DNA from: Asterochloris sp. CNOR1
Lineage: Eukaryota; Chlorophyta; Trebouxiophyceae; Trebouxiales; Trebouxiaceae
DNA: 64,000 nucleotides
Assembly: GCA_963969365.1 (NCBI GenBank)
Contig: OZ017751.1
Span: 310,001-374,000, forward strand
Reading direction: 5' to 3'
Below are positions 1-44,500 of the stretch, in pieces (the first letter of the stretch is position 1; each line of letters begins with the position of its first letter). A model generated the notes under the pieces. The model was given only the letters and a program-made list of their open reading frames with translations, was not told where the DNA came from and did no database searches. The translations under genes were made by a program, and so were the position numbers.

Positions 1-3000
1 GCGCCTGCAGTCACCCCGCTTACCCAGAAAGCAGCCCCGCAGGCTCCTCACCTGCCCAGCAGGGCTGTACCTCTCCAGGAAGGCGCCCTGTAGCTTGAGC
101 TTGACTGCGTCCTGGCAGCCCCGAGCCGCTTGCTGCAGGCTCTCTGGCACCGGTGCTGCCGCAGGAACATCCTGGAGGGCTGACGCGCCAGCCGGGTTGA
201 TGCGCCGAGCAGGCCGCGGTGCCTGTTCCCTGGTGCCTTGCACGGCCTGCAGGCACATGTGGCATGGCTCGTGCTGCTGAGCGCCTGCAGTCTGCGCCAG
301 AAGGTTTTGCTAATGGACCAGATCTGGGGGTGCCCCACGGTGTGGCCGGCTTTCCGTCCTGCAAACTCTGGCAACAAGCTCCAGCTGTGGGCAGCACAGC
401 CGCGCGAACGCTCACACCGAGCACACACCACACGCTGAGGCAGTCACATCCGCGACAGGCATAGACCAGCCAGCTGACCTGCAGAGTCTGGCGGGCAAGC
501 TCCAGCCCCGGGCAGCACAGCCGTGCATAGCGGGCATCCACCTCCGGCAGCTGGTCCCATTGCAAGCGAGTCAACTGCTGTTGCCAGGCGGACCCGTCCC
601 CATCAGACTCGGCCCCCAGATGTGTGACGGGGCAGCGCTGGAAGTGAGCGTCCAGCACGCAGCGCAGGCACAGCAGGGGGTGCGCAAAGGCTGCACTGCG
701 TGGGCGCAGATGGTCCAATTGCTGCAGGGCCAGCAGGCGACGTTGCAGGCGGCGCATACCCGGGGATGCCCAGGCGGTAGGGTCCCAGGGAAGAAAGCAA
801 AGGTACCGCAGCAGCCAGGGCAGGGCCCAGCACAGGTGGGCTGGGGATACGACGGCTGCGGCCAGGTGGGCTTCTGCATCCACCAGGGGGATGAAGACGT
901 CGCTGGTGTCACTGGGACCTGCAGACAGCAGGCGATCACATTGGCTGGTGGCACTTCACCGCAAAGCAGAGTCATCCAGGTTGCTTGCAGGCAACTACAT
1001 GGTGGCCCTACAGCGGGCACAAGTGGCACACAAAGATGTTGCTGATTTTGCTAGCATCTGCAGACAGTAGGTGAACGCATTGGCTTGTTGCAGTTCACAG
1101 CGAGGCAGAGCCGTTCACATTGCTGGGCCAGGCGTGCAGGGAGCAGGCAACTGGGTGTTGACCCTGTTGCGCCTACCAGTGGCACACTGCTGTTACTGGT
1201 GTTGCTGGGACCTGCAAACAGCAGGCAACCGCGTAGGCCTGTTCAAAAGTTCTGCAGTGCAGAGCTATGCACACTGCTCGCCAGGGCCTGCAGGGAGCAT
1301 GTCAGTGGATGTCGGCCCCGCTATGTTCAACAGTGGCACACAGGTGTGGCTGATAGGGCTTACAGGCAGCAGGCAATGGGTAATGGAAACATTCGATCTT
1401 CATCCAAGGTGCCACTGCCAGCTTGCAGGGCGGCTCAACTGCCAGGCATATCGATCAAACCAGATGGCAGGATATTCCAGTGAGCATCTCTGGGAGCCCG
1501 CGTGGTGCCCGCTGTGACCGTTCAAAGCTGTGGTGGCCACCACGTGCACCTGTGGAGGTGCCTACTGATGAGATGCTCAGAGGAACAGCATCGTAGGAAA
1601 TGCACAACGGTGCAGGCAACTGAGCAGACTGGTTTGCTTCAGTTGCACACCCAGCACCCACAAGACTGCCTGAGTGGTGCAGACGCATGACGGCGAAACA
1701 GAGCAAGAAGGCAGTGACCTGAAGAGCCACTTCAGACAGTGATGCCAAGACTGCAAGAGTGGTGCCGTCCTCTCAGCATTCACTGCGTCCATTCACAACA
1801 ACGGCAATTCGATTCACCTGGGGAGCCACTTGTGAAGTTGAGGTAGCTCAAGAAGGTGGCCAGGGTGCATATCGCCGTCAAGCGCTCGCTGCGTGTGGCT
1901 GGGCTGCTGCTGCCGCTGGCGCCCTGGCCAGCTAGGCTGCTCAGTCTGGACAGCATGTGCCTGCAGGGGACCAGCACAGCAGCTTCAGCAGGCCCAGCAG
2001 CTGGGGAAATATGCAACAGCAACCAAACTTGCGTAGATCCAGCCTACGGTGGCCCTTGCCTACGCGGCTGTGTGTGAGACTCGATGTAGGACGCAGAAAC
2101 ATGAAGAGGGAAAGGAGACATGGAGCACCTGTGCTGGTCAGCGAACAAAGCCCTGTAGTGGGTCCCGTGAGGCCCTCTGCCTCGGCACCATGCAGCAAAC
2201 TGCAAATGGTGCTGGTAATGCAAGCACAACGAGGCCGGGCAGCAGATGAGCGATGCAGGACACGACTCAGTGCAGGGCCAGTGCAATGCAGCAGATGAAT
2301 GTGATGGATGCATACGATCTGCTGCCTGCAGATCTGTCCGCTGAGCAACATCACCAAATCCAGAAGCAGTGGTGCTCGACCTGCAGCTGGCCAACACATG
2401 ATTGCGTCAGTGGCCACTCCTCAGGACACAGCAGCACAGAGCGCTGTCTGAGTGAGTGCACAGGTTGTGGGAGGGACGTGGCTTGTGCCTGCAGGTTGGT
2501 CTCAGTGCCTACCTTGTGATGCTGGCTTGCAGTCGGGAGCTGTCGGCTGCCTCCAAGAAGGCCACGAACAAATGCTGCGCTGGAGGGAACTCTGCCATCA
2601 CCGCTGCGCTGCTGGCGGCGCCGTCCTGCATGACTTTGGTGTGCAGGCCGCTGGCAGGGCCCCTGGCAGCTGGCCTGCCTGCATGCCAGGTGGCGGCTGC
2701 CTGCCCCTGGCTGATCGCTGGGGACAGCACAGCAGGAGATCCCAGGCGCCCACTGGCATGCAGCTGGCGCACACTGCTGGGCTGGCCCTGCAGGCAGGGA
2801 TCAGCTTTGAATCCTGAGGCTTTGACATGCAAGCGTGCCAGGTGGCGGCTGCCTGACCCCAGCTGGTGGCTGGGGTGAGTCCAGGCGCCTGCTGGCATGC
2901 ACCTGCCGCACGCTGCTTTGGCTGGCGCTGCAGACAGGGAGCAGCAGCAACAGAACTGCTTGGGGTGTCTTATTGTGCAGCTGCTGCACAAACACAGGAA

Positions 3001-6000
3001 GGTATCAGCAGCATCGCTGACAGAGATGCGCCCTTCTGTCATGCAGCTGGTGCTTGGTTTGCAGGAAGGTGTCGGCAGCAACAATGACAGATGTGGCCCC
3101 TTCTGTTGTGCAGTTGGTGCACGAAAGTCCACAACAAAGCCTGCAGCTGCTTATGCAACCCACTTGCAGGCGCAACATTGACTGCTGGAGCGGGACATGT
3201 CCTGCCAACCTGGCCAGTGACATCCTGGCTGCAGCGCATCGACACCTGCCTGTAACACAGAGGTGCTGCGACCTCACTTTGCAAGGCCACCTCAGCGCAG
3301 TCTCGAACAATCTCAGATGCAGAGACACGTCTCCTGGCTATGACTCACCTGTAGGCGCTGATTCAGCTGCTGGAAGCGGGACATGTCCTGCTGTGCCAGT
3401 CTCCCCAGCTCCTCGTCCAAGATGGCCTCCCCAGTGACAGCTGCCTGGAGCACTGCGGCGGTGAACAGCTCGGCAAAGGCGCCGTAGTTGTCGCGCAGCA
3501 GGCCCTGCAGGAAGGGCTGCGCGTGCTGGCGCATGAAGGTGAGCGTGGCCGCGCAGTGCCCTGCAGCCACGGTTCAGGGTCTGGGCTGTAGGGTCTAGGT
3601 GTGCCTTGAAGTCATAGGGGTGTAAGGTGGGGGCAGCATAGATGCAGTCAGCCCTGGCCTCTGGCTGCAGGGCAGGCTGAGGCAAGTCAGGCCTTCTACT
3701 GCCAGCACTTGCTGCTCTGTTATTGCTGCAACTGCAGGGTTCACACAAGTTTTAGGGGCCTTGGTCCTCACACAGTCCTGGCCCCGGTCAAAGGTCATGC
3801 CAACGCAGCTCTGGCTTGCATGCAGAGGCAACAGCTCCAGCTCTTGCTGCACTGTAACTGCGATGAGTGCTGGTGTGCACAGAGGTACTGGCGCAGGAAG
3901 CAGAGCAGTGACAGTGCAGCAAGAGCTGGAGCTGGTGCCCCTGTATGCCCTACAGCCAGGGGCCAGGGTTGGTGAAAGCTGCATCAGGACTAAGTCGCCT
4001 TGCATTGACTGAACCCTGCAATAGTGCAGCAGAAGCTGGCGCAGGCCGGCCATCGTTTCCTTAGTGCCTTGAATCAGTGTGTAGTGTCAAATGGCTCGGC
4101 AGTACCGCAAAGGCAGCCTGAAGGCACTCATGGCATAGGTGCAAGCAGCGCCTGCGATGCCAGACAATGCATGAGCAGGCGGCGTGTCAACTGCGTCAGA
4201 GGCCACCACTTTATGCTGCCTGGGGACAGCAGCTGCGCTGCAGGATGCAGCCCCCATGTAGCCAACTGGATCTGCATGCCATCATGCATGCAATGTGCCT
4301 GCTAGCCGCACACAAGGCTTGAGCATGCTTTCACTTGCAACCTGTTATGCGCTTGCCTGCTGCTGAGGGCGGCCCGTGAAGAGCCACTGGTCCTGACCCA
4401 AGGGCGCTGCCCTGCTGCGCAGCAGCTCTGCGCATCAGATGGTGCCACTCATCCCTGCACCGCTCCCGATTGCTGATGAGCCTCTGCTCCTCCTGCAGGC
4501 AGCATTGGGGGTCAAGGTTCAGGGTTTGAGGTTTCAACGCCTAGCCGCGAAGCTGGAGGCCATGCTGGCCCTGACAGCGCCAGCAGAAGCCATGCATTGC
4601 CGCCTTGTGGGCACCAGGAACTCGTGAGGATGAGGCAACTCTGCTGGGACAGGTACAATGTGCTGCTGGAAGCTTGTAGCTGCAGTCAAGTGCTGGAAAC
4701 TCTGAGCTTGCACAGTAACTGTCACATGACAGCAAGCGGTCAAGTCAAGGCCAGACTGGGTGCCAATGCCTTGGAAGAGCAATGCCGGTGTTTGCCTGTG
4801 CCTTCACAGCACAGTGCAGATGCTACTGGGTGCCAGCGCCTCCTCATCACATCGCTGATGCATATGCAGTTCAGACAAGCCTGCGCATGTCCTGGACGCC
4901 CTGATTCATGGTCACAACACTAACAATTGTGCACATTGCATGGCATGGCCTGACAGCTATGACAGTCAGTGCCTGCCCAGACAAGGCAGCCATGACACAC
5001 CCATAAGCACAACGATACCGACCAACTCCTCACTTGACAACTGCTCAGCATCGTGGTTGCTTGAGAGGGCTGCTTTCTTCTGCACCGCAAACTGACCTGA
5101 GATCTCAAAGCCTGGCCACTGCTCAGCATTGTGCCTGCCCCAAACAAGCTGCCAGTTCCAGGCATCAGCTGCTGCAGCCCCCGGGTGTGACGGGGCTGGG
5201 TAGCATGAGCTCTCCTTGCTGACTGCACTTCTTCCAGCAGCTCTGGTGACTGCTTTTGAAGAGAGTGGCTGTCTGCAAGTGCCTCCAACAATGGCAGACT
5301 GAGCGCCTCCACGAGGCGACCTGCAAAAGCAACAGCTGGCTGCAGCTCATCCTCCACTGAACTTCGACAAATATGCTCAGTGCTGGGGTACTGTCAGTAG
5401 TGACAGGCACGCAATACTGTCCCTGCCAGCAAGCGATTACAAGCATTGCATGCACGATTACTTACAAGCACAGCGCTGAATGTGCAATATGCATCTTGTG
5501 CTGCCAGGCAGTGTTGCTGCCTCCTCTGTCAGGCCTACTTGCTCACCTGTGTGCTGCAGCACTCTGCAGGCATAGGCCGCTGCCTGCCAGCCAGTGCTCA
5601 GCAACCCAGTGGCAGACGCTCCTTCAGGCGGTGTGTTGCAAACTACCGCCTCTGGCACCATGAGCAGCTGCGCCACTACGTCCAGCTCTGCTTCCAAACA
5701 GATTGAGCTGGATGAGGCTAAGACTGTGCCGTGCAGCTCTGCCAGCCGTGCAGACTGCGCTGGCAGCACGGGTTTCCCCCTGTCAGGGTCAGGCTGTGCC
5801 GCAGAGGCAGGAGCTGACTGGGGCTCTGCAGCAGCTGCAGTGCTCTTGGCAGCCTGGGGGCCTGCAGGAGTCGCAGGCTCTGCCTCTGCCGCAGCCGCTG
5901 GCGCCCCAGAGGTCTGCTCTTCATGGTGGTGTTCCACCAAATGTAGGGGCGTCAGGCTGATTGCTGCAGCTTCTGGCGGCGTGCCATCTGTGCCCAGGAC

Positions 6001-25800: not shown

Positions 25801-28800
25801 TGACCCTTTCCCTTGACCAAGTACCAACAGCTTTGCACAAAGCCTCAGGAACTGCCATGGGCTTCTTCAGGTCACGCACACAGCGGTATTCTACCTCAGA
25901 CACCCTGGTCGACGTCCTGTGTCTGGACTACCTGGGACCAGATGTCAACGAGGACACTCTGAAGCGCTTACTGATCAAAGCAGGGATCAGGGGCCTGCAG
26001 GTGAGGATTATACTGTTTTGCACAGTCACTGCTTCCTGCAAATGTTGGGGCAGTGGTAGATTAGTCTAGTCTAATACGACATGAGTCCAGAAGTCACGAG
26101 GTGGCCACCAGGCAGTGTCTGATTGGCAGATTGTGCCTCTCATGCAGGCAGTCACCGTGGCTGATGTTCAGATCAACAAGACTTCAGTGTATCATGGAGG
26201 CTGGGCTGCCCTGCTGTTTGTCGATGCGGAAGACGCTGATGAAGCTCTGGACAAGTGAGGCTACAACCTGCAGCCTTGGCCTATGTCACAGCGTCTGCTG
26301 TCTGCTGCAGCTGTCGAGGGTTCAGATTGCACCACCGTGACTTGTGCTGAATGTGCCCTGAAATACGGGCAGCTTGGACTGCAGCTTTTTGTGGAACGAG
26401 GCTGCAGCTTGCTGTGACTTCATTCACATATAGTCTGTGACGTAGGCAGCTGTTGCTACAATGTCTGCAGCACCAGAGGCCGTCAATCTGCCCCCCTCTT
26501 CCTTAGGCTGGGGCCTTAGCAACATGCTTGGTGAAAGCGGTCAATGCAAGTTGGAAGTCTGAAGGCAAACTCAGATCAGCAGCATGCTGGCCGCCACTGC
26601 CAGAGCCTCCACATGTCCATGCACTGCTGCCTCTGCACCCCTGCGAGCTGCAGCAGTCGCACCACTGCCCTGCAAGCTGTCTTCTGCACACCTTCCGGTG
26701 CCTGGCTCAAGCAAGCTGCTGCGATCAACCCTCTGCTGTGCAGGCTGAAGCGTTCATGCCTGATTCAGCCTGGTTCTGGGAGCTGCTGCTGTCACTCCAC
26801 TGCCCTGCAGGCTGCATCATGTGCACCCTGAGGAGGCTGGTTCTGGGAACTGCTGCAGTCCCTCTGCTACCCTGCAGGTTGCAGCATGCCTACCTAAAGG
26901 AGCCTGGCTCTGCATTGCCGCGACCTCTACATGCCCACAGGCCACGGTGGCACCAGGTTCCTTGGTACTCAGAGGAGCGCATCAAGGCAGCAGAGAAGGT
27001 GGTCAGAGCTGGAAAGGACTCCAGGTATGTGACAGGCGCTTGCTTGCCATGCTTATGGGATTGGGCTGTGTGTGTCTGTTGTCATCCCACTGGGGGATCA
27101 CTCAGGTTGCAGCAGAACACTTGTCTGCTACGCCACCTGCAAGTGGCCAGCCCCTGCGTGGCATACAGCAGCATGCTGGGGCCTGTGCGGTGGTCCAATT
27201 GTAAGGAATGAAATCAGCAGCCCCAGCCAGGAAACCCAGGCTGTCGGACACATTCAGCCCACATATTCTCAGCTGGGTCTTACCTGAGGCAGGGCAAGCT
27301 CTGCCCACTGCTTTTGAGGCACCTGCAAAGTGTCAGTTGGCAAGCAGTCCAGGAGCTGCTTGCAATGCAGTGCTTAAGGGGATGGAGAGATGTGCAGGTA
27401 GTCTCGCAACGTGCTTAGGCTGACTGCCGGCCCAGAAGACAACAAACATGGTTCAAAAGGTTGATCCCTAGGCTTAGAAAGAATAATTACTCTAGTGATT
27501 GGCCTCCAACTATTCTAAGAAAGCTTTTGTTCCTGGCTTGCCTGGCTGCAGTGATAGCCGACAGCGCAGAAGCAGCCGCCAGCCGCCTTCTTCAAAGGAG
27601 CTGGTTCAGGCAGAGCTGCAGGTGCAGGACCACCTGGCCATGCCTGGGCACATCCCCATGCTGCACCTGGCGCCGCACTACGTCCAGAGGAACAGGTGGG
27701 GTGCTGCACCAGAGAGGCCTAGTGTCACTGATAAGTTAGGGGGAAGGTAGTGTGCCGCATCAGAGCCACGGATGTGCTCTGGTGCTTGGTCAGCATCTAC
27801 GGCACTAAATTTGCTATCCGCAAGTCTGCCACCAAGTCTGCAAGGAGACAGTCTGTATGCTGCATCTGACACTGGAGTGCTGGCTCTTGCCTGGATGGCA
27901 GCTGCAGCATGGAGCAACTGCTTCCATTGCGAGGCTGTGTGAGGTGTATGCATTGCAGTTGTGCTGCACGCTGCTCTGGTGAGTGCAGCGGCTGCTGGGG
28001 TGCAAAGCCTCCCCTCACTTGACATGCCAGCACAGACTGTGCTGCTAGCACCCTAGGAGTGTTATTGACTCCTAGGGTGCAATGCTGGAAGCCACTTTGC
28101 TCCCATTCCTGTCACTCTTTGTGCTCTGTGGCTGCAGCATAGAGTTTGACACGGCACTGCAGTGGCGGCTGCACCTTCGCAAGTTTGCGGCTGCCAAGGA
28201 GCAGCTGCAGGAGAGCCACATCAGGGAGCTGGTGGCCATCTTGGCTAAATGGCGGAAGGTGGGTGTCAAGCTCCACTCTGCTGCCAGGCTTGTCCTGGCA
28301 TTTAAGCAGCATCTTGGACTCTGTCCCGCTGCAACTAATGCTGGCCAAGCTGTACGGTTTCTTTGATGTGATATGACCCTCTCTAAGTAAGCTGATGGCG
28401 ATGCTGGCAGCAAGGAAGCTGGACCTAGGAGGCTGCATGGGGCAGTGTGGCTGACTCAGGGAATATGGCACGGGGTACTGCTCTGCTGCCTGGCGGGCTA
28501 GGTTGACTGGAGGGTTTTGTTGCCATCAGGACAGATCTGGTGTGGTGACTACTCTGCTGCCTGGCTAGCTGGCTTGGCTAGAAGGCGAGATGCCGTCAAG
28601 AGCATCCAGAAGCCAGGCGGCTGTCTAATATGTCTAGAACTCCAGAATTTTAAGGGGCTGCTCTGCTGCAGCTGCCCACAGCTGTGCTGCTGTGTGGTTG
28701 CCAGGACTGCTAAGTGCTTTGGGATGGGGATCTCCTCAGTAGCCTATGCGCTGCTTTGCTTGCTTGAAGCCGCAGGGGCTAGGGGCAGATCTGCCTGCCA

Positions 28801-31800
28801 ACCCGCTGGCTGCTCACTGTGGGGTGGTGTGGATCAGGCAAGCAAGAGGCAGCCAAGGACGCCACCGCGTTCTGCCGTCCATGTGTCAGGCCTCACTGGC
28901 TACTGTAAGGGTGCAGGCTTGCTTGAGGGAGGTGACATCCATTGTTGGGGACGGTTTGCCAGCCACTGCAACGATCGCAGGGTCTAAAGGCACTGGACCC
29001 CAGGATGGCCTGCTGGCCTGAGTCTGTGCTGAGTGAGCCATCCCTGTGCTCTGGCTGGTCCAAGTGGTGTCACGCCCTGCATATGGTCTAGGACTGTGCC
29101 ACGCCGTCAACCACGCCCTGTGACGTATAACTGCAGCTGGATGCCTGTGCACTTTATGCACGCCTGGCCACATGGCGAAGCATCCTCCGTAGGCCCCTCT
29201 AGAGACCTGAGACTGCCAGGTATCATGTATGCTCCCCACTCTTACCGGGACACATGCCTCCCGCAGGTGTGCATGTCCCAGAGCGCCTTTACTTGAAGGT
29301 ACAGCTGTCCAAAGCACGCTTTTCACGCAGAGGCTGCCAGAGCTCTCATCTCCTGACCCCAGACCTGACCCAGGCCCCAGCTGCTCTGCAGGCATGCATG
29401 GAGGCGGGGCACAGCTTTCCCCAGGGCCCCTCTGTTGAACCCAAGCCTGCCAGCCGTCAGGTGCCCTTTATGTGGTTCAGCAATGTGCCCGTCAACACGG
29501 TGGAGGAGCACAGGGAAGGGGAGCTCAACAAGGGGACCAGCCTCAAGGACATCTGTTGCCAGTGGTCAAGGGACCCCAAGGTCAAAATGCTGCGCAACCC
29601 CGCAACTGGGAAGCCCTATGGGCATGCAATCCTGGCGGTGAGGCCTTGTGTGACTCAGCCTTTGCAGCAGCCTCAATCCTGCATGGGGGTGAACCCTGCG
29701 AGGGGCAGGCTCTGTGAATGGGCAGTTCTGGCAGTGGGGCCTTGCATGATGCAGCTTTTGGAGGGCTCTTGCCTCAAAGCAAAGCACTGCTAAAATCTGC
29801 CACAGGGCAGGCCTCATGGGGACAATCTTTACGATGAGGCCCTCCGTGATGCAGTCCTTTGGGCAGGCTCAATGCGCACACTGCTGAAGCCTGCCACAGG
29901 GCAGCCCTATAGCCATGCAATGCTAGGGTGAGGCCTTGCGTGTTTCAGCCTTTGGGGCCTCTCCATGCTGCGGATGTCAGCCTGATAGACATGCAACCCT
30001 GGGACGAGCCTCAAGCACTGTCCATAGCTAGCTCAAACCAGGAGGCAGCATACACATGATGCACCTCAAGCTGGGAAAGCTGATGTCATGCAAACTGTGC
30101 AGGTGGAGTCTGTGGAGCTGGCGCAGTCCCTGATGGGGGACCTGCACGAGGAGATGCTGTTCCAGATCGGCAGCAGCCCCCGGGCGCTGGAGGCTTCTGT
30201 GGCTGAGTCAGGTGTGTGCGGGGCTCATTACGCCTCCTGCAGTTGCACCGTGCAGCCAGCCTCGCTTAAGCTGCTGCGCTGGCGTCAGGGTCTAGGGACA
30301 AGAATCCTCCTCCTCATGCTGGGAGCACCCTGCCTCGTGCATCTGCGCCGGGCGCCCAATACGCCTCGAGCCGCTGCTCTGGGTGGCTGTGCATTGCCTT
30401 GCGGCACTGTACGGCTGGCGCAGGACATGAAACTCCTCACCCCCACGATCTGCCTTGCAAGGAGAAGCATACCCTGACCCAAAAGAAAGGGAGGAAAACC
30501 ATGCATGCCAACAACCCCTGGGTGCCCCCAGGGCAGGCTGGACGCAGCCCTGCACCAGGTTTCCCCCTTGCTGATAGAAGTGTGTCATGACCCTTAGTGA
30601 AGAGATAGGGGAACACTGTGCCACTGTGCACGCAAACACCCAGATGCTGGACGCAGCCTTACTGCAGGTCCTCTTGCCAACAGCATGTTTGATGTCCTAA
30701 CAACCACTGATGCTGGAACTATCCAGAATGTGTGCAGGTGCACCCCGCGGCACCCAGGGCAAGCTGGACGCAGCCCTGCGCCAGGTGCTGGGGCGCGGCT
30801 GCAGCTCGGTCAACCCTGCAAACTACATCTTGATGTTCATTGACCCAGCGGATGGGCCCCCAGCCAGCCTGGAGGAGATCTGTGCCGTGCGCCTGCGGCG
30901 GAGGCTGGTGGAGCAGGCGGCACAGCTGCTGGAGCTCAAGCGTCAGGTGGGGCTTCATGCATCTGTGCCTGTGTGGGGCTTGTGGCGTATGTGACGCAGC
31001 TGGGGGAGCTCAAGCGCCAGGTGGGAGCTTCATGCACCTGTGGCTGTGTGGGGCTTGTGGTGTATGTGACACATGCACACTTGGCTTGGCCCCTAAAACA
31101 GCTAGGGCAACAGCTGCTGGAGCTCAAATGCCACAAGGGGCTTCAAGCTTCATGGGGGCAGGTAGACAGGGCAAGGCCAGTGGCCTGAGGCTCAAACAAT
31201 GGCCGTGCAGGATGGCCTGCCACAAGGCAGCCCAGAGTCTGACACAGTCTGGGGAAACTTGCAGTGTTTGCAATAAGATGAGTCAGGGTCACTGCCAAAT
31301 GCGGCGCAGCACAGCAGCTGCTATCATGTCTCCACATAGCTCATGCAAGCTTTGGACAAGCCTGCTCTACGCTCGCCTGCAAGCAAGGTCAATCGCTCAC
31401 CCTATTTGGCTACCATTCTGCAAGAACTGGACAGGCTTGCTGCCCTGACAAAGAAGCAGGCCCAATACGGCCTGCACACGGACTAAACATGACCGAGCAA
31501 CAGCTACCATTTTGCGTCACCACTGTTCATTTATTGCAGAAGCTGGAAACGCTTTAGGCTCTGACAGACACTGCCCATCCATATCAAACAACTAAGCTTT
31601 CAACGCCTCTATGCAAACTCTGGGCATGCTGCGGTCTCACCCGCCTAGAAGACCGCTTAACAAGATGGCACGATTGTCTGAGGCTGCATCCCCACGCAGA
31701 CGTGCACACCAGCCGCCATGATTGCACTAGATCATCAAAGTCTGCCCAAGTCATGCTCACCTGTTGAGTGCTCGTGTGCCCAAGCCCAGCCTTTTTCGCG

Positions 31801-38500: not shown

Positions 38501-41500
38501 TACAGCACAGGTTGGCACACTGCATGAGCCCCTGTTACCAAGGTCATGTCAGACAAGTCAAGCCTGACTTGCTGGCTTCTGTTTGCAACACAGGTGCAGC
38601 ACAGCAGTCAGGGGTTGCCAAGCAACTGTGGGCTCCACCACTATGATGATGCCAGGCTGTAGGACCCACTCAAAAGCCTCTGTCTGCACACCAGTGAGCG
38701 GGTGGCACGCTGCCAGGCAGGTGCAACAAGCTGCAGTCATTGTTCATGGACAGCCGTCCCTTGCAGCCTTGCACAGGACTGTCATGACGGCACACAATGA
38801 AGTGCAGAGAGAGAACACAGGCAACAGCAGCTGGACAAGCACCGCAGGGTGTGCAACGGGCCTAAGCATTGCTCTGCCTGAAACAGCAAGCCATGCCCTC
38901 ACAAACCAGCGTGAAGCAAACATCAGCTTTTGGCAGGAAGTGAGGCAGAGGGCTCTGCTCAGCCTCGTGCTCATGTCCACAGCAAGCCCCACCTGCACTG
39001 GCGTGAAGCGCACGGTGTTCTCTGGCGGCTTGTCTTGAGGGTATGGCCCAGGGTCTGGTGGAGTGTAGGACTCCACAATCAGCTTCGGCGGCCCAGCCGG
39101 CACCTGCTCTGCCTGGCCATCTGCACCAGCTGTTTTCCTTTTGCTGGACTGCAGCATATCAAGATGGAGAGTGAGCTGAGCGCCTTCTCAATGCCCTGCC
39201 CGGCTCACCTTACAACTCAATGGTTGCACAGCTCGCAGCACAGCCACTCCTTGGAATGGCATACATGTCTTGGTGACCTGCCTGTTCAAGCTGCCTTGGA
39301 AACTGACCGGCACTTGGGCACCAAAAAGCATCAGGCACACAGCTGCTGCCTGTCCTGGCCATTTGCCACACAGGTGGCACCAACTAACATCAAATTTTGG
39401 GCCAAGACCTTCAGCTCTTGTTGCCTTGCCATGCAGAGACTGTGAGCACTGCAGGCAGCATGCAGCTGCTGCGCACCTTCCTAGTGGGCACTGCTTGCTT
39501 GGCAGGCGGTGGAAAGGTCACCCTGAAGGGACGGTGATGAGTGTCCTGACCAGACTTGTTCACCACCTCAAACTCATGGCCAGGGAAGCTTTCTTTCAGA
39601 TGATCTAGGTCCAAGAATGTGTCCTGCATGCAGGAAGCAAAATGTGAGCAGCTTGCCTCAGGAGGTCTTCAGCCACCTGACAACAATCTGCATTCAGATG
39701 CACAAGCCTTGTCAGTCCCATTGGCGATTAACACACAAGTCCTCAGGTAGCTCACAGTTAGCATCACAACCTTCTAGAGCACCATGCAGATCAGCACCCT
39801 AGGACTCAGTGAACACTGCAGATCCATACGCTTTGTCAGACCCAGACCGCTCCCGACTCAGGGACCCACATTGAACCCTTAAGGCCCCACCCCAAAACCA
39901 TGCTTTGCTACCCTACCAGCAGCGTCAGCCCCAGTATGCTCCTGACCCAGGGGCGCACCTTGAAATCCACAGTCTGCAGCAGCTGGTCCTGTGGCATGTT
40001 GCCGTACTGAGCCTGGGCTGGGTCGCCGTACCCCAGGAACACATCGTGCAACCAGTCGGGCACCACCGTCTGCTCATTCATCAGGTCCCGGATGCACTCC
40101 AGCACCGCCTTGAAGTTGTTCTCCTGCAGCAAGGCAGCAGCAGGGATGGATGGTGTCCGCCTGCACTTGGTGGCCCTGAAGTTGTTCTCCTGCAGCAAGG
40201 CAGCAGCAGGGATGGAGGTGTCTGCCTGCACCTTGGTGGCTTTGTAGTTGTTCTCCTGCAGCGTGGCAGCAGCAGGGGTGGATGGTGTCTGCCTGCACCT
40301 TGGTGGCTTTGAAGTTGTTCTCCTGCAGCGTGGCAGCAGCAGGGATGGATGGTGTCTGCCTGCAACTTGATGGCAGCATCGGTGGGTGCCAATATGCCTG
40401 CCGCCACTGCCTCAGAGTGATCCTCCTCCAACAGGCTGCTGCACATGATGTCAGATGATGTGCTGGCATGACATCCGGGGACATTCTGCAGTTGCAGGGC
40501 CAAGGCAGGGTCTCAGCCTCTGCACTCAGCTCATATGGCAGCAGCAGCACACCATCCCAGCGCACGTGCCGGCACAGCCTTGGGCCGGCACCTGCTGCAA
40601 CAAGATGGCAGTACGACAAAGACGGCAGGTAGGTGGCAGCGGCACGAGCTGCCAGCTTGTTTGCCAGCCCCTGGCTCAGAGTGGTGATCCTCCAAGAGAC
40701 AGCTGCAGAGGGCTTCAGGACCTGCGCTGGCACATGACATGAAGGAATATCTGCAACAGCAGAGCAGTGACATGGTCTCAGCCTCTGCAGTAATTCATGG
40801 GCAGCAGCACAGGGTCTCAACACACACGCCAGCACACTCTCAAAATTATTCTGCCTGCAGCTCAGTTGGCACAGGCAGGACCAGAGAGACGCAACCCTCA
40901 TGCAGCAGCTTGGTGTCAAGTCATGCTTCCTGTCAGAATAAGTTCTCAAACTGTTTGCTAGCTGAAGGGCATCTGCAGGTTGTGACATTAGGGACAAGGC
41001 TGGTCATTTGAGGTGCTAAATGCTCTGTCAAGGCATTCAGTGGTGCAGCGCTTGAAAGCACAGGCTTGCACACACCACCCAGAGAGTGGCACATTGCTGC
41101 CGTGCCATCATACCCTAAGTAATCCTGACACACCCCAACAGCTCAGATCAGCTCACAGAAGACCTCACCTTAGCCTTGCGTCTCATCAGCAGGTTGAACG
41201 TGCTGTACGGGTCTTCCCCCTTGGTGGCCTGCAAGTGATTCATGTCCATCTGGTACTGCGCCGTGTCGAGGGCCGCCGTGATGGTGCGAATGTTGCCCTT
41301 GGGGGGCTGCCACTCGTCCGGTCGTATTCTGCCAGTGAAGTCGTTCATCAGTATGCCCTCTGCAGCATCAAGGATTTGTAGTTAGTACAGCTGTTATACT
41401 GCAGACAGTGCCCTTAAGGCCGTCACTCATGAAAGCATCATCCATCAGGGTTCCCGCAGCAGCACCCCGGGACCATGATGAGTGATGTCCTGAATGAGCG

Positions 41501-44500
41501 AAATGTCTAAGGGCACTGTCTGCAACATGACGGCTGCACGCACTCTGTGCTTAGACATGTCGCTCATTCAGGACATCATTCATCATGATCCCCGCTGTTG
41601 CAGCCAGGCACCTGGCAGCCTGTACCCTGTCAACATACATGCATGTCAGTGTCTCCTGGTTGTGGCCTTGCTCATCAAGAATCACCTTGCAACAGCCAAG
41701 CTCCCTCATGCACATTGCTACTCAAGCTGCCCAGTGACCCCGCCTTGTACAGCCGCTGCAGCTATGTCCTTGACCTCCACACCTTTGCAGCCATGCAGGT
41801 AAAGCTGTCCACGAGAGCAGGACAGATGCTGCATAGGCAAGCCCCACAGCACTGCACATAAGTCAGAGACTGTCTGCAGTGACGCAGCGCCTGCCACTGT
41901 GCTGCTGCCCACCTTCGTCTTTGACTTCAACAACCTCGCAGCCGCGCACATACACCAGCCCACAGCGCTGCGCAGGCGTCAGGCTCTGCCCAGGGGCTAA
42001 CTGCTGGGCCATGATCTCCATATCCACGTCGCTAGGTGGCCTCAGCGTGATGAGGAACAACACATCATGCTGCTTGGTCTCCTCCCACTCCTCCGCAACA
42101 TCATCCCTCAGACCTGCAGCAACAAAGCTCAATGTCTTTGTCTCTGCAGTCATGCATGGCAGCAGGGAGGCTGCTGGCTACATCAACCTCCAGGAGGCTG
42201 CCAGTGTTAAAGTGACGGCTACACTACAGAATGCTCTGTCCTGCAGATGACAAGAGACATCGCAGACAGCCAGGCTCAAAGATATGTGCCAAAAAGGAGG
42301 GCAGGCATGTCAAGGCATTCCTCTGTCAACCCCAAAACAGAAGCATGATGTTTGCTGCCTGGCAGTTACCAAAGGCAAACTCTGATCATTGCCTCCTCAA
42401 AAAGGAGGTAGGAGACACCAAGACCTACCTGAGATGTCAATGACGATGTCTGCAAACACGTCTGCAGGCTTATTCTCCCCCACATTGGGCTTGCGGACCT
42501 CTACAATGCTGAAGCTGGTCAGCGGCAACCCCATACGGGCCCAGCCTCGGAAGACCACCTCATCCTCATCATTCCTGCAGCGCAGAGAGATCATCAGCTG
42601 TGCCTTCCCCGCTGCACTCAACCCACTAGTTTCTGCTGGACAGGTACAAGTCTAATGACAATCAGCAGGGGTGGGGCCAGTTCCTGAAAAGCACTTGGTC
42701 TTCATGAATTCTGCAGCCCACCAGAAGACCTCTTAGGAAGGTGCACATTGGGATGCATTCACCAGCCTCAAAGGAATGAAAACACATACAGCCCACTGGA
42801 GACCACTACATGATTGCTGCCAACCCATAAGCGAAGGTGTCTAGGAGTCTTGTAGAGAGCACTCTTGGCGTAAGACAACTTCACCAGTGGTGCCCTTGAC
42901 ATGGCAGCAGCATGCCCTGAGCACCCAAGCAGCTCTACAGTCTGCCACCTGGGACAGCTGCTGAGGTAAGGTGAACCTACCTGCCAGCCCCCACGCGGGA
43001 GATAGCATCAGCGATGTCCTCCCTGATCTCATAGGTGGCCTCAAGCCGGAAGAGGTTGAAGTTGCGCAGCAGATAGTCATGGAACGTCAGGAACTGCAGG
43101 TTGAGCTTGGGCAGCGCCAGGCAACCCTCGCCTGCGCAGCAAGCCAAAGCGTACTCAAGTCCCAGCAAAGGGCTTCAAAAAGAAAGCGCAGGAGGTACAT
43201 CGGCAGCAGGGGCCGTTGAAGGCTCAGCCCATGGCAGGGCCTGGCATGCTCAGTGACTGCCAGGGTTTGTGGCAGCGCAAGAGTCAAAATGGCTGTACGT
43301 TTAGGTCAGTTGCCCATGCAGTGATGCTGCTGTGCATGTCAGGGTGCAGCACGCCAGCCATATGCCCTGCAGCTGGCAAACGCAGGAGCCAGAAGGCAGA
43401 GTAACAGGTGCATCCCCTCCGCCCCAGAGAGGTTCACCCCCTCCGCCTCAGACAGCAGGATCACTTATGCATCAGCTCATGTGCCACAGCCAGCTTTCGT
43501 GAGGCCAGCCAACCTGGTGATGTGCACGCCCTGCGCCTTATTGGTTAGGTCCCACAGCTCAAGCTTGCATACACCTCACAGAACAGGCAGCCCACCTGTG
43601 AAGTGCACATCCGGAACCTGGTTGGGATCCCACAGGATGCCCTCTGTAGGGTACAGAGGCATCTCGTTGATGACCTCTGTCTGGAAGCGCCTGCGCTCAT
43701 AGGTGCTGACCATGACCTCCATCAGGAAGTCGGGATTGTCTGCCCACAAGTCCTCATCATCTGCCAGCCTGCAGGCAGAGTTGGATGTGCAGGTTTGCTG
43801 AGATGCAGAAGCTGGGCACAGCTTGCTGACTGGGCACAGCTTGCTGACTGGGCACAGCTTGTTAACTTGAATTGGATAGCAGAAAATGAGCGGTGCCGTG
43901 AGCTGCCGTGCAGCCCCAAGGCCATCTGAGCAGCTTGGCGACCAATACGTCAAGCTGCAGCTGCAGCCGCAACCTTGAGAGAGTATAATCTACTGACTGC
44001 CTGAGCACCCTTCTACCCACCTCCTGCTCCGGACATGGGAACACACCCTCACCAAACACATCTCAAAATGGGATCTAGATCTTGAGCCGCCTTGTGTGCT
44101 GGCTTCAGAAGAGGTCGCATCAGCAGAGCTTGACTTGGGCTCCTTGACACCACCCCAATAGCTGAGTGTCGGTGGGCAGCACCATCCTGTCTCTACACCT
44201 CAACAGTCCCTAAAAAGCGGCCTAACCACAAGAGCACCCAGAACCTGCCTGAGCTGCTTGGTGACCAGAAACTTCAGCTCCTCATCCTCCAGCTCCCCCA
44301 GGTACTTGCGCAGCGTGGTGGTCTTCTCCACGGTGCCGCAGTTAGCCAGCGCAAGCTCACGCAGCCTAGGCTGGTGCTTGAAGAAGAGACGCTGCAGCTG
44401 CTGCACCTGTGAGGCAGCAAGATACTGAGGTCAAAAGCTGGAGATGCATTGACCAAGAGTTGGTCCCTGTGCAGCTCCACATGTCCAGGGTGGCAGCAAC

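Follow-up and report, generated by a model that had tools for sequence, protein, structure and literature searches.

Which end does a gene use when one of its introns offers four acceptors in a row, and what becomes of the others? The question is raised by a gene for a splicing helicase, AQR, on the minus strand of a 64,000-nucleotide stretch of Asterochloris sp. CNOR1 DNA (contig OZ017751.1; hereafter the window, in whose numbering all positions are given; G+C content 57.7%). On this strand the sequence CTGCAG|GAGAACAAC is present four times, giving four splice acceptors one after another. An initial annotation of the window had placed the repeated CTGCAG acceptor at exon starts 40123, 40189, 40255 and 40322, which is right to the base, and had read the array as a set of competing 3′ splice sites built into a core spliceosome gene.

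The AQR gene and its introns

The gene was recognised by comparing three-frame translations of the minus strand with the sequences of PDB chains. The 24 matched stretches (9 + 9 + 6) lie in order and are collinear with residues 114-1612 of 8xi2_Q, the best match, a chain of 1844 residues labelled Intron-binding protein aquarius; next come 4pj3_A/5mqf_U, which we take to be human chains. AAA_11 and AAA_12 score above the Pfam cut-offs in two of the stretches. Based on this collinear similarity and the SF1 helicase core, the gene belongs with AQR (IBP160), the intron-binding SF1 helicase. The model leaves out both gene ends, and no AQR stretch matched residues ~432-633 of 8xi2_Q.

Between the matched exons, 22 of 23 introns were resolved as GT(GC)-AG pairs that keep both frame and homology, the junction between 45590 and 44770 being left out of the model. 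The top-ranked candidate was taken in 21 cases; in the remaining one, the intron that ends at 39623, the candidate ranked second was preferred (6.68 vs 6.79) because it joins TVDFK to DTFLDL in the manner of the human chain (DF-N-DTFLS). A probable GC-AG intron lies at 44248 on the minus strand, with the donor CAG|GCAGGT. The array-bearing intron is the longest of those resolved (Table 1), the others measuring 167-698 nt, and the next intron beyond the exon that follows the array is 335 nt. A genome search with that 55-residue exon alone found one copy. The neighbouring AQR intron carries overlapping inverted repeats at 41380-41592 (43 nt at 93% and 37 nt at 81%) that have no match elsewhere in the genome.

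A minisatellite across an intron-exon boundary

The four copies lie head to tail and are nearly identical, as in a minisatellite, and the array reaches from the last part of the intron into the exon, of which it covers the first 17 nt. From 40123 upward the first exon bases are spaced 66, 66 and 67 nt apart. Exactly four copies of CTGCAGGAGAACAAC are present in the window, always on the minus strand, where none is expected (100 shuffles). Each unit of ~67 bp is composed of ~50 nt of intron end, with a pyrimidine-rich stretch and the CTGCAG acceptor, and of the first 17 nt of the exon, so that the unit as a whole is a piece of intron end with its adjoining exon start, duplicated in tandem across the boundary. 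Compared with the real exon start, these first 17 nt differ by 1 (U0), 2 (U1) and 1 (U2) substitutions; the rest of the unit is intronic, with one more copy on the left-hand side of the first acceptor. The single bases lost from U1 and U2 sit at different places.

Within the organism's own 56.4-Mb genome the only match to the array was the array itself. A search for relatives of the region returned 83 pattern stretches in genome contigs and 10 in viral contigs, none of which was confirmed. The array was also considered as an RNA-structure element and rejected on a shuffle test, the region 40090-40410 folding no better than shuffled sequence (z 0.80; 82 of 100 shuffles as good). Farther up the same intron lie the two copies of an older tandem duplication, ~260 bp apart (Table 1). 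On the minus strand 40825-40861 resembles an acceptor with an exon start (at 40861), perhaps an older relic; the resemblance is not significant, 18 of 300 shuffles scoring as high.

Table 1 Features of the acceptor array, the adjoining AQR exons and other tandem duplications (window positions)
Feature	Position	Strand	Description
AQR exon upstream of array	41169..41359	minus	donor at 41168, 9.9 bits
Array-bearing intron	40124..41168	minus	1045 nt, longest of 22 resolved AQR introns
Older tandem duplication, copy 1	40662..40836	minus	in array-bearing intron
Older tandem duplication, copy 2	40399..40576	minus	70.7% to 40662-40836, E 4e-15
Tandem array	40107-40374	minus	4.0 copies, period 66/67 bp, 92% matches
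Unit U0	40256..40322	minus	67 bp; acceptor 40322, 14.5 bits; frame-shifting if read through
Candidate microexon ENNFKATK	40299..40322	minus	24 nt, in frame; acceptor 40322 with donor 40298; predicted
Unit U1	40190..40255	minus	66 bp, one A fewer; acceptor 40255, 14.5 bits; +44 residues
Candidate microexon ENNYKATK	40232..40255	minus	24 nt, in frame; acceptor 40255 with donor 40231; predicted
Unit U2	40124..40189	minus	66 bp, one G fewer; acceptor 40189, 15.9 bits; +22 residues
AQR exon downstream of array	39959..40123	minus	ends QTVDFK; homology to five PDB chain sequences; acceptor 15.9 bits
Two-copy repeat, 74/75 bp	30923-31070	plus	duplicates probable exon end and donor; different gene from AQR

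Strength of the four acceptors

Splice sites were scored with a matrix built from the 21 other resolved AQR introns, which is small and not specific. On this matrix the array acceptors reach 15.9 bits (40123 and 40189) and 14.5 bits (40255 and 40322), while the 21 other AQR acceptors, scored leave-one-out, have a median of 8.4 and a maximum of 14.7 bits. Each of the four thus outscores at least 19 of the 21, and among 563 other intronic AGs only three reach 10 bits.

Published work (PMC9225289) holds that the upstream of two competing 3′ sites is preferred overall, that exon definition lessens this preference, and that exon definition favours the sites closest across the exon. Given the upstream preference, 40322 could win over 40123 in this pair of introns (1045 and 335 nt). 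Matches to the branch-site pattern YTNAY occur in 10 of 21 AQR intron tails, against 0.48 of background windows, and have their A at -20 to -28 in 9 of 21 introns. For each of the four array acceptors the 8-120 nt upstream contain no such match, and therefore site choice cannot be predicted firmly.

The conserved junction

When the upstream exon (...RRKAK) is joined to the exon beginning at 40123 (ENNFKAV...), no insert is needed at the junction to align the product with each of the five distinct PDB chain sequences matched there. These are 8xi2_Q, two human AQR constructs, 8ro0_Q and 9l5r_Y, all of them from solved structures and all distant. The residues vary slightly (RRDSK-TNNFK in 8ro0_Q, RRSSR-ENNFK in 9l5r_Y) and the stretch is contiguous throughout; 3jb9_X, presumably an S. 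pombe chain, matched the helicase region only and is uninformative on the junction. Protein homology therefore identifies 40123 as the ancestral, conserved junction, and any insert there would fall inside a contiguous conserved stretch. An insert restricted to this lineage may still be compatible with insert-free homologues as distant as these.

Taken together, the array is most probably a recent minisatellite that happens to lie over a splice site, with 40123 as the productive acceptor, the other sites being noise or a source from which new exons and introns could arise. A boundary segment of ~67 bp was duplicated in tandem and then multiplied, as minisatellites are, until there were four copies of the acceptor. 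Productive AQR mRNA would use 40123, which we infer to be dominant on the ground that no other acceptor lies so close to the donor at the far end of the short downstream exon and that the preceding intron is long, the pairing that exon definition would make. The upstream copies would give low-level by-products, some of them, from 40322, being removed by nonsense-mediated decay, and the in-frame insertions from the remaining sites would break the conserved stretch. Such an array would be tolerated rather than selected, and could supply alternative acceptors, microexons or the material for intron gain.

Candidate microexons and possible new introns

The units hold more than acceptors. In U0 and U1 a donor-like AAG|GTGCAG, absent from the initial annotation, follows the acceptor after 24 nt, at 40298 and 40231. 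An acceptor at 40322 or 40255 could thus pair with the donor of its own unit to define a 24-nt microexon, and what is left of the array would become a short new intron, by the route reported for the potato RdRp gene (PMC4974935). We consider it unlikely that such an exon is being born here. At 7.1 bits each, the two donors fall inside the range of true AQR donors (4.0-12.5 bits) but under their median of 10.1. Both candidate microexons would be in frame, and the potential intron from 40298 to 40124, at 175 nt, exceeds the shortest resolved AQR intron (167 nt); no resolved intron is as short as the one from 40231 to 40124 (108 nt) or as those separating adjacent units (42-43 nt). The third unit adds little, its donor-like site at 40166 being weak (3.5 bits) and the resulting 23-nt exon shifting the frame.

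These donors also bear on what had been said of the fourth site. The frame shift described for 40322 does follow if the site is read through, and a stop is then reached; paired with the donor-like site of its unit, itself joined to 40123, the same acceptor would permit an in-frame exon. Counting all possible splice paths through the array, 12 of 21 stay in frame with no stop, and the fraction is six of eight when every intron is at least 100 nt. Four acceptors and three donor-like sites could accordingly be regarded as a splice-site cassette that yields several in-frame AQR isoforms, among them one with ENNFKATK between the K and the E of the contiguous conserved stretch, the ratio of isoforms reporting 3′ splice-site choice. 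We rate this extended proposal as quite unlikely.

Coding potential of the inserted residues

Functional use of the alternative acceptors is a separate matter: 40189 and 40255 could be used as they stand, giving AQR isoforms with extra residues. That starting at either site adds 22 or 44 residues with no stop was confirmed, both sites are strong, and both units arrive at 66 bp by separate one-base losses from 67. As two of the three units are each one base shorter, and so a multiple of three, frame might have been under selection, but two events are no proof.

The absence of stops was rejected as evidence for protein, all three minus frames being open through the array. The 24-nt part from acceptor to donor (17 exon-derived and 7 intronic nt) carries 1, 2 and 3 substitutions over the three unit pairs, every one of them within the 17 exon-derived nt, and the 43-nt intronic part carries 3, 4 and 1 over the same pairs. 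Across these three units the exon-derived bases appear no better conserved than the rest, and nothing suggests coding constraint. Extra sequence that is conserved or constrained, as functional alternative 3′ sites would have, was found neither in the five homologous chains nor in the comparison of the three units. According to PMC2279118, in-frame tandem sites with inserts of 3-9 nt are selected against, the more so where the protein is ordered. Thus the reading of the insert as plausible protein was not borne out, and we regard regular use of these acceptors for functional isoforms as improbable.

Splicing factors often regulate themselves through frame-shifted mRNAs that are sent to decay. 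AQR could in principle tune its own level in this way, 3′ site choice at 40322 producing a frame-shifted mRNA for decay. This acceptor is strong, counted from the donor it comes before the other three, and its use leads to a frame shift and then a stop, but the same site also allows the in-frame microexon; an autoregulatory role seems highly improbable. Short tandem repeats can be miscounted in assemblies, and to an assembly or sequencing artefact in the copy number we give almost no credence, every full unit having its own substitutions or one-base losses.

Duplications over probable splice sites elsewhere

The chance that a 67-bp segment placed at random in AQR includes an acceptor junction is 0.10, or 0.066 if at least 20 nt of intron and at least 5 nt of exon are to be kept. 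Where introns are packed as densely as in this gene, occasional duplications over a splice site are therefore to be expected. Another probable case is present in the window: the two-copy repeat at 30923-31070 has the donors CAG|GTGGGG at 30947 (10.9 bits) and CAG|GTGGGA at 31021 (6.4 bits), 74 nt apart, and reading on to the second meets an in-frame stop. The exon concerned was inferred from its open frame alone and had no Pfam match. Because this duplication spans the probable donor of a different gene, the array does not point to a peculiarity of a core splicing gene. What stands of the competition first proposed is its plausibility, given four strong acceptors; its being special to such a gene was not upheld.

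We also surveyed 264 kb of the genome, made up of 20 loci of 10 kb and the window. Of 24 tandem arrays with a period of at least 25, three repeat a strong acceptor-like site, the AQR array included, and three a strong donor-like site; the donor-spanning repeat at 30923 is not among the latter, its second donor being below the cut-off. Strong acceptor-like sites occur in the sampled DNA at 1.77 per kb, counting both strands, and the AQR array counts as an acceptor array even when its plus strand is scored. The matrix is therefore not specific, and such counts do not show real splice sites. Two more arrays with a 67-bp period and repeated acceptor-like sites lie at 2995-3120 and 26714-26912; the common period may be a coincidence.

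Comparison with known systems

Even if the extra sites are silent, the locus offers a clean natural experiment on how 3′ splice sites are chosen, with four near-equal acceptors 66-67 nt apart in one intron, and it would tell whether the organism picks the acceptor by proximity across the intron or across the exon. The searches made for literature on minisatellites or VNTRs over splice sites found none save a paper on SVA elements, which is not proof of absence in print. The comparisons below are with published systems as described in the cited papers.

Tandem 3′ splice sites of the NAGNAG kind (PMC2279118, PMC2423196) likewise give a single exon a choice among several competing acceptors, including in-frame ones. 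The AQR acceptors differ in being spaced by 66-67 nt rather than by a few nucleotides, and each copy has its own upstream context.

A second comparison is with ATP2A1 and the 24-bp repeats of fission yeast (PMC3443670, PMC4974935), in which, as in AQR, a tandem repeat holds an AAG|GT donor-like site (in two of the AQR units) and a CAG|G acceptor. The AQR segment, in contrast, is mostly intronic and includes an existing acceptor, and within its unit the AAGGT falls on the intronic side.

Among the closest parallels is the potato RdRp gene PGSC0003DMG402000361, where the last part of an intron was duplicated in tandem together with the beginning of the following exon and made a new intron, supported by 106 junction reads and formed from a cryptic donor and the inherited acceptor (PMC4974935). 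There too the duplicated segment consists of intron 3′ end and exon 5′ end and copies the acceptor with its polypyrimidine tract, and a donor-like site upstream of a copied acceptor could complete a new intron. The potato gene has two copies and an intron supported by reads, whereas AQR has four acceptor copies in units of 66/67 bp, and the introns that they could form would be very short. Judged by its anatomy, the AQR array belongs to the same class of event as the potato duplication, with more copies and with intron gain as a prediction only, and it adds a multi-copy example of tandem duplication over an intron-exon boundary as a route to new exons and introns.
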